Program-made: the position numbers and the translations under genes
Part shown: positions 4,313 through 36,290 of the stretch, piece after piece
Numbering within the stretch: the first letter of the stretch is position 1
How the letters are laid out: every line of letters begins with the position of its first letter
The notes under the pieces: model-generated
What the model was told of the DNA's origin: nothing
Seen by the model: the letters and a program-made list of their open reading frames with translations, nothing else
The model's database searches: none
Assembly: GCF_000237995.1 (NCBI RefSeq)
Contig: NC_016605.1
Location: 372,001-436,000 of the forward strand
DNA from: Pediococcus claussenii ATCC BAA-344
GTDB taxonomy: Bacteria > Bacillota > Bacilli > Lactobacillales > Lactobacillaceae
DNA: 64,000 nt
Reading direction: 5' to 3'

Positions 4313-4495
4313 AACCCGTCATGGTCTCCTTTTTGTTAATCCTCACAAGCAAAGCGGCTTGTTTCACTCTCTATTTGAAATGAGTTGTGCAAGCCAGCTT
4401 CTTCCGGTTAACCTAAAAAGGAGACCATGACCAAACCCGTCATAATCTCCTTTTTCTGTTAATCCTCACAAGCAAAACGGCTTATTTCACTCTCT
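4313..4495 (-). repeat. Hairpin repeat locus A: one full unit and one half unit after pepC
   Basis: Read on the minus strand, unit A1 runs 4495 to 4373 and starts with AGAGAGTGAAATAAGCC at the second base of the pepC stop codon. Its two arms pair (AAGCC/GGCTT, GTTAAC/GTTAAC, AAAAAGGAGA../..TCTCCTTTTT) and the tip reads TATGACGGGTTTGGTCATG. A second copy, A2 (4372 to 4313), begins with the same AGAGAGTGAAACAAGCC after TCATTTCAAAT but stops at the tip, GACGGGTT. The same family is at 26918-27180 and 36037-36226. A1 may act as the pepC terminator. Confidence 0.85.
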
Positions 4496-5843
4496 AATCT
4501 TTGTAAGCTAAAGCTCCCATTGGATCCCAAGGCTTTAATTGAACAGGCTCGCCAGATTGTGCTTCACGTTGTGCCTCTGTTAGATATTGTTTTTCGACAA
4601 CAACTTGGTAAACATATTCGTCCATCCAAGCATCTGACATTACCATATATCCTTTTTGTCCAATCTTGTCTCCCCAACTATTTTCAACTTTCCATTTAGT
4701 TGGTTTGTCATCAACGAGGTCAACACCGGTAATAACCATGGCATGTGTCATAAGACTTTCTTTGTAGTCAAGACGTTCTGCCTTCGACATTGCAATATCA
4801 ATATCAAAAAGTTCATCTTCTGCAAAGATATCAAGATCAAGAATACCCTTTTCACGAGGTTCAGAATGTTGACCGACGTCACTACCAAACCAAACTGATT
4901 TACCAGCCTTAAGTTGGTTAATGGCAGCCCTTTTAACGTCGTGCATTGATAAGTTAAGATGCTTAACTTGGCGTCCGCCAACAACATTACCAAGCATTTC
5001 AATTGAGTAAGTTTGGTCGAATGGCTTGTCAGTTGTTGGTGCATTGATAAGAGATACATATTCTTTTAGATCCCAGCCAACATACTTTTTAAAAAACTCT
5101 TTTGGAGTGATACCAGCTTCACGATGATAATTTTTATCATCATCCCTAAATTCCCAGTCAAATTCAACTGGTGGTTCTCCAAAACTGTAGGATGCCATAC
5201 GGTAAACTTCACTTAACATCTTTTCTTTGCGAGCTTGAACTTCTGGTTCACTAGTTCCGGCGTTTACAAGTTCGCGCAATGTAACAGCATCTTTGCGTAG
5301 CTTTTCGTTTAATAATGTGTCGAATTCACGTGATTTAGAGCTGCTATATGTTTCTGGATAAACTGATTGAGGGACAATACCATACTTTTCGATCAATGCA
5401 CAGAGCATATCCCATTGGCCACCGTCGCCCTGGGGTTCATTTAATAACCAAGCTACTTTACGATCATCAGTATCCAAAGCGGCAGTTTGAATAATATTTT
5501 CGTAGAACCAATTTGATTTTTCAAATTTATCCCAGAAAAAAGTGTAGTTTTGAGATAGTTCAAAGTCACCTTTAACACGAAAATGATCTTTCATGTCATG
5601 ACGCATTGTGTTTAATGCGGCAAACATCCAACAACGACCACTTTGTTTTTGATTAGATACATCGCCAGTTTGTAAGTCAATTGAGAAGACTGGAGTACTT
5701 TGAATATCAGCTCTAAGATCTTGTGAAGAAGCTAAAATACCGTTTTTAGTAACAGTTCGTTCTAAAACTTTTGACTCTTTTCGTTCGCTATATTCCGTTT
5801 TGAAACGATTGATTAAATCTGATGAAATTCCTTTATTACTCAA
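4494..5843 (-). CDS. pepC: Aminopeptidase C (bleomycin hydrolase family cysteine peptidase)
   Basis: A papain-like C1B aminopeptidase that removes N-terminal residues from peptides taken up during growth on protein. With the TTG start at 5843 it has 449 residues, the usual length, with catalytic Cys71 (QSGRCWMFAALN), His367 (LMTHAMVITG) and Asn388 (KVENSWG). I prefer TTG 5843 because GGAG sits 8 bases upstream, whereas the upstream ATG at 5882 has no ribosome site and would add 13 unusual residues. The C-terminal residues ending AYKD fold into the active site in this family. Cytoplasmic hexamer by family knowledge. The stop codon abuts a hairpin repeat. Confidence 0.96.
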   Translation of the reverse strand: MSNKGISSDLINRFKTEYSERKESKVLERTVTKNGILASSQDLRADIQSTPVFSIDLQTGDVSNQKQSGRCWMFAALNTMRHDMKDHFRVKGDFELSQNYTFFWDKFEKSNWFYENIIQTAALDTDDRKVAWLLNEPQGDGGQWDMLCALIEKYGIVPQSVYPETYSSSKSREFDTLLNEKLRKDAVTLRELVNAGTSEPEVQARKEKMLSEVYRMASYSFGEPPVEFDWEFRDDDKNYHREAGITPKEFFKKYVGWDLKEYVSLINAPTTDKPFDQTYSIEMLGNVVGGRQVKHLNLSMHDVKRAAINQLKAGKSVWFGSDVGQHSEPREKGILDLDIFAEDELFDIDIAMSKAERLDYKESLMTHAMVITGVDLVDDKPTKWKVENSWGDKIGQKGYMVMSDAWMDEYVYQVVVEKQYLTEAQREAQSGEPVQLKPWDPMGALAYKD

Positions 5844-5921
5844 ATCATCAACTCCATTCTTAAATTTTAAGCATAATTGCATTGTACTATGATTAGAAAA
5901 ATTAGTAAAATATGAGAATAG

Positions 5922-25974: not shown

Positions 25975-26913
25975 ATGAAGAAGATTAACATAGGTGGGAT
26001 GGAAGTCTCAGATGTTGCATTAGGTATTATGCGAATGGATGCTTTAACAAAAGAGGAAGCGGCCAAAGCAATTCAAGCAGCCGTTGATTCCGGTATTAAT
26101 TACATTGACTCAGCTGATATCTATGCGGCAGGTCAATCAAGTATTCGTTTTAACGAAGGATTAAAATTAACTGATATTAAACGTGAAGATTTGTTTATCC
26201 AAACAAAGGGTGGAATTGTAAATCCAAATAAGGGAGATATCCCTTATGGTAATCGTTATAACTTTGGAAAAGATCACATTATTTCAGCCGTAGATGGTGA
26301 ATTACAACGACTGGGAGTAGATTACTTGGATTCCTTTTTGCTTCATCGTCCAGATCCACTGATGGAACCGGAAGAAATTGCTGAAGCATTCGATGAACTT
26401 CAAACAGCTGGTAAAGTACGTCACTTTGGTGTTTCCAACTTCAACCCAATGCAAGTTGAATTATTACAAAGTTATTTGTCGCAACGCCTTGAGATTAACC
26501 AACTTCAATTTGGAATTATGCATTCTGGAATGATTGATTTCGGAATGCATACAAATATGCATGATGCTCGTAGCATTGACCATGACGGACAGTTTTTAGA
26601 ATATGCTCGTCTTAACGGTATTACGATTCAAGCATGGTCACCATATCAGTACGGAATGTTTGCAGGTGTGTTTATTGATAATCCTAAGTTTCCTGAGTTA
26701 AATCGTAAAATGCAAGAAGTTGCCGATATCTATGGGGTGACTAAAAACGCGATTGCTACTGCTTGGATTTTAAGGCATCCGGCTCAGTTCCAGGTCCTTT
26801 TAGGAACGATGAACCCACAGCATATTAAAGAATCAGCTGCTGGAAGTGATGTAAAAATAACAGGTCAAGAATGGTATGACATCTACTATGCGGCTGGAAA
26901 TGATATGCCATAA
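25975..26913 (+). CDS. Aldo/keto reductase (YdhF-like)
   Basis: A 312-residue (beta/alpha)8 oxidoreductase that reduces carbonyls with NADPH. The catalytic set is visible: Asp in YIDSADIYA, Tyr a few residues on, Lys in IQTKGGI and His in SFLLHRPDPL. NADPH-site residues lie in the C-terminal AWILRHPAQFQVLLGTMNP. The ATG has TAGGAGG upstream. The sequence fits the YdhF group better than the diketogulonate group. A cre-like palindrome lies upstream, and a hairpin repeat begins 4 bases after the stop. Confidence 0.9.
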   Translation: MKKINIGGMEVSDVALGIMRMDALTKEEAAKAIQAAVDSGINYIDSADIYAAGQSSIRFNEGLKLTDIKREDLFIQTKGGIVNPNKGDIPYGNRYNFGKDHIISAVDGELQRLGVDYLDSFLLHRPDPLMEPEEIAEAFDELQTAGKVRHFGVSNFNPMQVELLQSYLSQRLEINQLQFGIMHSGMIDFGMHTNMHDARSIDHDGQFLEYARLNGITIQAWSPYQYGMFAGVFIDNPKFPELNRKMQEVADIYGVTKNAIATAWILRHPAQFQVLLGTMNPQHIKESAAGSDVKITGQEWYDIYYAAGNDMP

Positions 26914-26917
26914 AAAC

Positions 26918-27180
26918 AGAGAGTGGAGCAACCCGAATAGCTTGTGAGGAATAACAGAGAACGACGCTTTGACGGTTTAGGTCAAGGCGCCGTTCTTGGT
27001 TATCCGCAGAAAGCTGGGTTGAGTAACTCATTTCAAACAGAGAGTGGAGCAACCTGAATAGCTTGTGAGGAATAACAGAGAACGACGCTTTGACGGTTTA
27101 GGTCAAGGCGCCGTTCTTGGTTATCCGCAGAAAGCTGGGTTGAGTAACTCATTTCAAAACAGAGAGCGGAGCAATCCGGA
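26918..27180 (+). repeat. Hairpin repeat locus B: two full units and a 20-base third copy
   Basis: Two nearly identical units lie head to tail (26918-27038, 121 bases; 27039-27160, 122 bases). Each begins AGAGAGTGGAGCAACC and ends AACTCATTTCAAA. A third copy matches only for 20 bases (27161-27180). Each unit folds: CAACCC/GGGTTG, AGCTT/AAGCT, GGATAAC-type arm/GTTATCC, AGAACGACG/CGCCGTTCT and CTTTGAC/GTCAAGG around the tip GGTTTAG. The elements share the head, tail and tip with loci at 4313-4495 and 36037-36226. No spacer is present between copies, so this is not a CRISPR. Confidence 0.9.
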
Positions 27181-27254
27181 TGCTATTTTAAAATAAACCT
27201 CATTTTTACTGCATTAAATAACGCGAAAAACACGAGACATATTTAAATCCGAAT

Positions 27255-27296
27255 AAAAAAGCGATAAGCATTCATTAGTTTGCTTGTCGTTTTTTC
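27255..27296. terminator. Bidirectional terminator downstream of the DHA2 efflux gene
   Basis: AAAAAAGCGATAAGCA pairs with TGCTTGTCGTTTTTT, with a bulged G and one G-T pair. It lies next to the stop of the minus-strand efflux gene at 27311. Confidence 0.75.
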
Positions 27297-35158: not shown

Positions 35159-36038
35159 ATGATTAAACCTGAAAAATAACCGATTAGAAGTTGAGATTGA
35201 CCAAATGGGAGCACAGTTAACCCACGTGGTAGGAGTTGAAAGCCAGTATGATTATATTTGGAATGGTGAAGCTTGGAAACGTCATGCACCGATTCTTTTT
35301 CCATCAATTGGGAAGTCGAACAATGATCAGTATGAGTTAAACGGACAGACATATTCAATGCCACAGCACGGTTTCGCACGTGATTTTGCTTGGGAAAAAG
35401 TGAATCAATCAGAAAATGCCGTTCTACTTGAATTAAAAGCTAATGATAAGACAAAAGAAATGTTTCCGTTTGATTTTATGCTACAAGTTGAGTACAAACT
35501 AGAAGAAAATAAATTGTTAACAGGATATCGTGTTATTAATAATGATTCAAAGGCAATGCCATATGCACTTGGTTCACATCCAGGATTTAATGTGCCAATT
35601 GATGATGATGGTGTGTTTGAAGATTATTCATTAACCTTTGGACCAAATCAAAAAGAAGTTGTTAAATTAGGTGTTAATCCTGCACCATTTAGAGATGGAA
35701 CTAAGGCGCCATACGATCGAGTTAAAGATAGCATATTACCGCTTGATCATGAAATGTTTGATGATGGTTTGATAATTTTAGATGCAAAAAAGATTGAGAA
35801 TGTAACGTTACGCTCAGAGCAGACTGCACATGAAATTAAACTAGATATTAAACAATTCCCTTATGTGACATTGTGGGCAATGGAACATGAAACAGAACCA
35901 TTTTTGTGCATTGAACCATTTGCAGGATTACCTGATGAGGCAAGTGATACTCCAACTGATTGGAAGAACAAAAAGGGTAACAATTTATTGGAACCAGGCG
36001 AAACGCACACATTTGAGTATGGAATTGAATTCAAATAG
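35159..36038 (+). pseudogene. Aldose 1-epimerase (GalM/LacX-like) with a frameshift in its first codons
   Basis: The ribosome site AAGGGAG and the ATG at 35159 open a frame that stops after six codons (TAA 35177). The +1 frame from 35166 reads NLKNNRLEVEIDQMGAQLTHV and runs on to the stop at 36038. Removing one A from AAA at 35165-35167 would give MINLKNNRLEVEID, an ordinary epimerase start. As it stands, only a start at ATG 35205 would make protein (277 residues, missing about 15). Family marks in the body: PQHGFARDFAW, YALGSHPGFNVPI with its His, and FLCIEPFAG with Glu. The enzyme interconverts sugar anomers and fits beside the glucosidase. The stop codon forms part of a hairpin repeat. Confidence 0.8.
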
Positions 36039-36226
36039 AGAGCGTAACAAGGCGGTTAACCACCGAGTATTAGCAAGGTACGGCGTTATGACGGGTTAGG
36101 TCATGATGGTGGATTTGGCTAAACGGAGGAGGTTGCCTTGTGTAGCTCATTTCAAATAGAGAGTAAAACAAGGCGGTTAACCACCGAGTATTAGCAGGGT
36201 GCAAACCGTTATGACGGGTTTAGCCC
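36037..36226 (+). repeat. Hairpin repeat locus C: one full unit and one half unit after the galM-like gene
   Basis: Unit C1 (36037-36157, 121 bases) begins AGAGAGCGTAACAAGGCGG inside the TAG stop of the epimerase gene and ends GCTCATTTCAAAT. Arms pair as CAAGGC/GCCTTG, TTAGC/GCTAA and TTATGAC/GTCATGA, and the tip is GACGGGTTAGGTCA. The second copy, C2 (36158 to about 36226), matches up to the tip GACGGGTTTAG and then leaves the family. The stem bases differ from loci A and B but still pair. Confidence 0.85.
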
Positions 36227-36241: not shown

Positions 36242-36290
36242 AAAAAGACGCAGAATATAAGTCAAATCGACTTATATTTTGCGTCTTTTT
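36242..36290. terminator. Long bidirectional terminator
   Basis: A 22-base stem (36242-36263 with 36269-36290) with a 5-base loop and A/T ends lies between the converging epimerase and SDR-like genes. Confidence 0.9.

Follow-up and report, generated by a model that had tools for sequence, protein, structure and literature searches.

The hairpin repeats of the analysed DNA (the window, 64,000 nucleotides of the genome of Pediococcus claussenii ATCC BAA-344) bear signs of selection as an RNA hairpin in 3' UTRs, with a probable mobile origin. In the explanation that we favour, to which we give about an even chance, these dispersed repeats would be transcribed in 3' UTRs and retained at the stop codons of certain genes for what their hairpin does in the mRNA. 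Mobile DNA is their probable source, and an RNA function and the state of a tolerated mobile element may both hold for one family, at different stages. The family would rank among the widest gene-end hairpin repeat families so far known from Gram-positive bacteria, combining strong covariation with absence from Rfam. Through it, the question of whether such repeats affect mRNA decay, stall ribosomes at stops or are purely selfish could be studied in cultivable food bacteria, where the same gene is found with and without the module in close species, and where the presence of the module is kept and its sequence exchanged.

Repeat units, genomic copies and distribution

The host genome comprises 1.98 Mb in 9 contigs, of which C1, with dnaA near its start, contains the window at positions 372001-436000. 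The hairpin repeat announced at three window loci by a preliminary description is real: a covariance model trained on 21 units gives 61 matches at E<1e-3 in the genome, arranged in 34 clusters, which is beyond chance. BLASTN finds 33 matching stretches in the same genome. The units are about 118-125 nt long and often tandem, and near-identical subfamilies of units, both dispersed and tandem, occur within each genome. The description of every window locus as an array of tandem units holds at 26918-27156, where two full units are present, but at the other two loci one full unit (4376-4495, minus strand, and 36037-36154) is accompanied by a second unit truncated at the tip. The features are the following:

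4313..4372, minus strand: second unit, ending at the hairpin tip
4376..4495, minus strand: full hairpin unit, the first two bases of which complete the TAG stop (4494-4496, minus) of the gene 4494-5882
4494..5882, minus strand: Peptidase_C1_2 gene, 462 aa, upstream of the 4376-4495 unit
25975..26913, plus strand: aldo/keto reductase gene, 312 aa, upstream of the 26918 array
26918..27035, plus strand: full hairpin unit 1, beginning 4 nt past the TAA of the gene 25975-26913
27039..27156, plus strand: full hairpin unit 2, differing from unit 1 by one substitution over the unit
27161..27183, plus strand: head fragment of a third unit
27257..27294, plus strand: intrinsic-terminator-like hairpin with T-run, 3' of the 26918 array (direct folding; omitted by a simple terminator scan)
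35205..36038, plus strand: aldose 1-epimerase-like gene, 277 aa, upstream of the 36037 array
36037..36154, plus strand: full hairpin unit, the first two bases of which complete the TAG (36036-36038) of the gene 35205-36038
36158..36226, plus strand: second unit, ending at the hairpin tip
36242..36290, plus strand: intrinsic-terminator-like hairpin with T-run, 3' of the 36037 array (direct folding; omitted by the simple scan)

Most arrays terminate in a unit that is cut after the head or at the tip, as at 27161-27183, 36158-36226 and 4313-4372 of the window. The A-rich linkers between units look like the flank preceding the first unit, which hints at the mode of array growth. A variant of 125-128 bp (GAAGTGTGGAAAAG..CACGTTATGACCG) forms tandem arrays in the same genome at C1:95128-95504 and C1:167257-167764 (loci L167 and L170), with a different head and without a near upstream stop codon.

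A search of the genome and its relatives by covariance model, as the preliminary description had proposed, extends the family well beyond the host. The element is present in all 12 Pediococcus genomes (2-93 matches each), in 128 of 301 genomes and 20 of 40 genera of the Lactobacillaceae, in 122 of 395 genomes of the order search (Lactobacillales), with strong matches in several other families, and in 25 of 399 genomes of the class search (Bacilli). Many genomes of another family of the order are without a match, which argues against indiscriminate hairpin matching, and the streptococcus-like genomes (family identity inferred) among those listed in the class search gave no match. The AGAGTG head, the CGNTTAG bulge and the CACGTTT tail are common to many of the order matches. 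Beyond the order, tandem arrays are formed by units (for example GAAAAGCGGAA..CCGTTTAGC..GGAGCTGGA) that have a like bulge, loop and length; their homology, as judged by the model, is less certain. In BLASTN against 72,556 plasmids and 50,697 phages the window array gave no match. Three other units gave none against the plasmids, and the sole match of one further unit in these collections, a weak one, is to a Latilactobacillus curvatus plasmid record. In view of this near-absence of matches, a recent plasmid or phage element was rejected.

Fold, covariation and strand asymmetry

Each full window unit folds into a single long hairpin of -46 to -52 kcal/mol, with z values of -5.3 to -6.8 in respect to shuffles. 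The stems, which had been described as differing in sequence and still pairing, do show compensatory two-sided change, in 27 of 39 pairs within the P. claussenii genome alone. For 123 distinct units taken family-wide, 38 of the 39 pairs are changed on both sides and the covariation score is 0.897 (at most 0.095 when slid); in the class-wide sample, two-sided change is found in 39 of 39 pairs. The absolute pairing figures (97.0% of paired cells for the 123 units, as against 61.0% shuffled and 34-43% slid, and 92.2% in the class-wide sample) favour structure, because the alignment was fitted to the structure. The paired changes had also been read as evidence against recent copying, which is half right, as near-identical subfamilies occur within a genome and whole units are replaced at orthologous sites.

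The strand on which the fold matters was addressed by comparing G-U and A-C mismatches, with the arms of each unit aligned and all mismatches scored alike, symmetrically for both strands, a test free of the leaning that the structure-fitted alignment brings. The isolated stem mismatches on the sense strand comprise 192 G-U and 43 A-C (85 and 13 for matches >86 bits only), in sets that came from the RNA model, which prefers G-U. In 17 copies found by BLASTN alone the excess is weak (18 G-U and 12 A-C). Since a strand-neutral DNA palindrome should give equal classes, an excess of G-U on the sense strand argues for RNA, and this strand evidence may be called good, yet not bias-free. Selection on folding, as the preliminary description had argued, is supported by the covariation, by the sense-strand excess of G-U over A-C and by the placement at stop codons.

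The tip GACGGKTT..GGTCA, considered a shared feature, is constant in the P. claussenii genome but varies across the wider family. What persists are two asymmetric features, seen in 80 nonredundant units reaching other Bacilli: a four-base bulge, C-GNTT-A, on the 5' arm (97% G) and, some eight pairs further in, a GA/GGA internal loop. Class-wide, the stems and most of the loop bases vary around them. Such fixed asymmetry of bulge and loop argues against mere palindrome correction, by which features of this kind would be erased.

Placement at gene ends

The window arrays begin at -2, +4 and -2 nt from the stop codons (ORF coordinates), in the sense of the gene, and the docking proposed earlier is thus correct. 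In the arrays at -2 (two of the three loci) the element's own initial AG finishes the TAG stop of the gene. Strong terminator hairpins stand downstream of two of the three window arrays; the simple terminator scan misses long-stem terminators after arrays, and these were therefore folded directly. In the P. claussenii genome, as analysed in the stretches around the matches, 26 of 33 arrays have their first base between -2 and +13 nt relative to a sense stop, a placement with a chance of ~0.18 per array if uniform within the spacer. Where convergent genes allow a measurement, 60-347 nt separate the 3' side of the array from the facing stop. Family-wide, 55 of the 68 loci whose upstream ORF is clear begin between -9 and +12, most often at -2. 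As a control, terminators were taken from genes without the element in P. acidilactici-type stretches; they start a median of 24 nt past the stop, with 22% within 12 nt and none before 0, by which terminator spacing is ruled out as the sole cause of the docking.

Several other family-wide elements lie directly behind a terminator T-run, and one is found 7 nt after a tRNA (L171). In the Bacilli genome G762, a related unit is located 4 nt past the 3' end of the 23S rRNA, before the 5S gene (L285:1025-1146); a second copy in this genome (L286:1061-1182) shares the flank of the first. As some elements follow a T-run, a tRNA or the 23S rRNA and not a stop codon, a purely translational role is insufficient.

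The genes that precede the arrays are of ordinary kinds (peptidase C1, aldo/keto reductase, epimerase, AccA, MTHFR and a membrane transporter are found among the eight genes assigned). About 10 of 80 aldo/keto reductase loci, from Pediococcus, Companilactobacillus, Lactiplantibacillus, Lacticaseibacillus and Latilactobacillus, carry the element in sense within ~13 nt of the stop; the remaining gene ends in those 80 loci have ~9 elements together, over roughly 400 ends (an estimated number). In close Pediococcus relatives the aldo/keto reductase gene is without the element or has a different long hairpin, and the pattern thus reflects recurrence or repeated loss. The different hairpin (AGTGGGC..GAGTAACG..GCCGTCCTAA) is found right behind the aldo/keto reductase stop in P. 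ethanolidurans, P. parvulus, P. damnosus and P. cellicola (L092, L093, L094 and L095 are the loci of the four species), and it is tandem in P. cellicola.

The suggestion of a 3'-UTR RNA, one of several made originally, is supported by the covariation, the predominance of G-U over A-C, the stop placement and the terminators after two of the window arrays. Counted against an RNA function are the range of copy number within the genus (2-93) and the many related genes that are element-free; in addition, related MITE-like families spread without usefulness. If the arrays are transcribed, as the favoured explanation requires, a stable stem beginning within the footprint of the terminating ribosome may slow or stall termination. 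The stem would also block 3'-to-5' exonucleases, with no ribosome-free gap ahead of it, and so shield the message; the expression of the upstream gene would then be tuned via mRNA life and translation. A precedent is given by the stop-proximal REPs of E. coli: about half of the REPs of this species are found no more than 15 nt from a stop codon, where they stall ribosomes, according to work cited in PMC12306157. The element may work like these stop-proximal REPs, yet it is not a REP. A bolder version, speculative and rather unlikely, has the repeats as an undescribed, Bacilli-wide structured RNA family docking on stops, in which a dedicated protein or the terminating ribosome reads the C-GNUU-A bulge and the GA/GGA loop, and the hairpin is a portable 3'-end expression module that genes retain as its sequence is swapped.

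Site occupancy, mobility and relation to described repeats

About 600 kb each of two Pediococcus genomes, G001 (P. acidilactici-like) and G002, were compared. The orthologous sites comprise 32 pairs filled in both genomes and 6 filled in one only. The 5' flank is conserved in 27 pairs; in 14 of these the units are <80% identical and in 10 at least 90%, and the junction is often identical to the base despite the differing units; such exchange of content may proceed via recombination or conversion between copies. The two subtypes were counted per direction, each pair being counted from both sides. For the stop-codon subtype (AGAGTG..CGTTTCG[AG]CTA) the result is 51 filled/filled against 1, the exception being a decayed copy, and there is no empty site between G001 and G002. 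For the long subtype (..GTTTTGGCTCTATTGAAG plus a second stem-loop), which is mostly found 2-81 nt from stops and is terminator-like, it is 13 filled/filled against 5. Sites that stay occupied despite unit exchange fit selection for some hairpin at those stops, while in two species 83-97% identical the site conservation could partly mean age, not selection.

The main rival of the RNA explanation, which we regard as possible but doubtful, is a selfish miniature mobile element of the EFAR/ERIC kind that inserts into or beside short stem-loops (terminators, for example), spreads for its own sake and is tolerated where it lies at gene ends, the fold serving mobility via a candidate ssDNA-hairpin enzyme and not the host. 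It explains the long subtype well. Three long copies (G001 1110054, 1354057 and 1413515) occupy the exact position of a short terminator hairpin in the empty genome, the A-run and T-run flanks of which are preserved. A fourth, at L233:2986, also replaces a terminator, but it borders 5 kb of other DNA, and the insertion at G001 1173973 has ~16-bp direct repeats of a small palindrome on its flanks. The near-identical dispersed and tandem subfamilies in each genome and a nested second repeat (~96 bp) are likewise in line with a selfish element. The stop-codon subtype agrees with it less: it is practically without empty sites (51:1) despite the turnover of content, its docking at -2 to +12 is tighter than that of terminators, and a strand-specific G-U bias is unexpected of a mere DNA substrate. 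Moreover, no partner enzyme was found in the PF01797 search of the 12 genus genomes, and the plasmid and phage collections are almost without a match. Under the RNA explanation, the stop-codon type would nevertheless be of mobile origin.

An element acting at the DNA level, as a protein-binding or recombination site (chromosome organisation, or an attC-like strand, considered in view of hairpins that come after stop codons) with the hairpin formed from ssDNA, is improbable. It is favoured by the concentration of the repeat clusters in the origin-proximal half (32/34 in P. claussenii, with none in the terminal quarter, 43/56 in G002 and 26/31 of those listed for G001), which the RNA explanation leaves unexplained; the bias is just mild in G234, a genome of another genus (KS p 0.04). 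The exchange of content at orthologous places would suit a recombination site as well, and so would the locus G002 L238:15837-16945, where an array and a two-gene toxin-antitoxin-like module (recognised by eye) stand between a gene stop and the element orthologous to that of G001. Both elements there share the 5' linker GAAAATAAA, in the manner of a gene cassette. The sense orientation to the upstream gene and the G-U bias indicate RNA, however, and no integrase or binding protein is linked to the repeats. Palindromes maintained by replication template switching (quasi-palindrome correction), with the fold unselected, are very improbable, for although this process likewise yields paired changes and the upper-stem arms are nearly perfect, the bulge and the internal loop are conserved at fixed places across the class, G-U prevails over A-C mismatches in a strand-biased way, and both placement and orientation are precise.

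The preliminary description had found no described family that matches. This stands as far as Rfam is concerned: no Rfam 15 family reaches gathering score over the window copies, 14 loci from Lactobacillales and 19 wider ones, and at E<=0.1 the latter 19 gave just chance microRNA matches far below threshold. A literature search, including full text for sequence strings, returned only unrelated string matches and no description of the element. Overlooked, on the other hand, were the EFAR, ERIC and REP kinds of repeats. With REP/BIME the element shares the palindromic repeats at gene 3' ends, whereas its unit is ~120 nt and not 20-40, no GTAG-type tag was noticed in it, and its arrays run head-to-tail in the gene sense. 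The idea of a REP-like element mobilised by a tip-recognising transposase was not borne out, as PF01797 is absent from 11 of the 12 genus genomes and the tip is variable family-wide; the twelfth genome has a single short, fragmentary PF01797 match and just 6 elements. The missing Y1 transposase (PF01797) and the unconserved tip rule out REP/RAYT membership.

Among the known kinds EFAR, compared by description only, is the closest lead. Its reported targets are short stem-loops, remnants of whose stems survive on either side of the insert, and the Efa-1 of Petrillo et al. 2008 is presumably the same element. The short stem-loop targets ascribed to EFAR are seen here at the three filled/empty pairs of the long subtype. 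EFAR also comprises palindromic repeats, dispersed and transcribed, in a member of the Lactobacillales, and its mosaic of modules is a further likeness. EFAR of Enterococcus faecalis is listed among bacterial MITEs (PMC3733652), and Efa-1, 163 bp with two adjacent stem-loops, was presented as a new family (PMC2267715). Two adjacent stem-loops are present in the long (P. acidilactici-type) subtype, while the window units are single hairpins. Unlike EFAR, the stop-codon subtype consists of one hairpin, docks on stops, keeps its sites with the content changing, and has a class-wide bulge and loop.

ERIC is dispersed in transcribed intergenic DNA of many enterobacterial genera and is flanked by TA; to our knowledge it has no transposase, and we know of no sequence common to ERIC and the Pediococcus element. 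Neither TA nor another constant short target-site duplication was seen around the latter, which is preceded by T, A, C or G and has varying 3' flanks. It resembles ERIC, which is a single long stem-loop (PMC2267715), in its single long hairpin of similar length, and differs from it in the stop-codon docking, the tandem arrays and the variable base before the element. Bcr1 of the Bacillus cereus group and BOX and RUP of Streptococcus pneumoniae are likewise structured intergenic repeats of Firmicutes, BOX being modular. By description, all three differ from the Pediococcus element in module plan and distribution.

The ~96-bp repeat (GCTAGCTCGT..AAGG..TTGCACAA..CCATTCCTATGGGCG..CATAGGAACTGGC) occurs in stretches of the P. 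claussenii genome as head-to-tail arrays, with L007:1658-2027, L030:1536-1825 and L008:1079-1462 among its sites. It is mostly nested in or attached to the 121-bp element and often preceded by GAGGATT, with 31 copies in the stretches examined.
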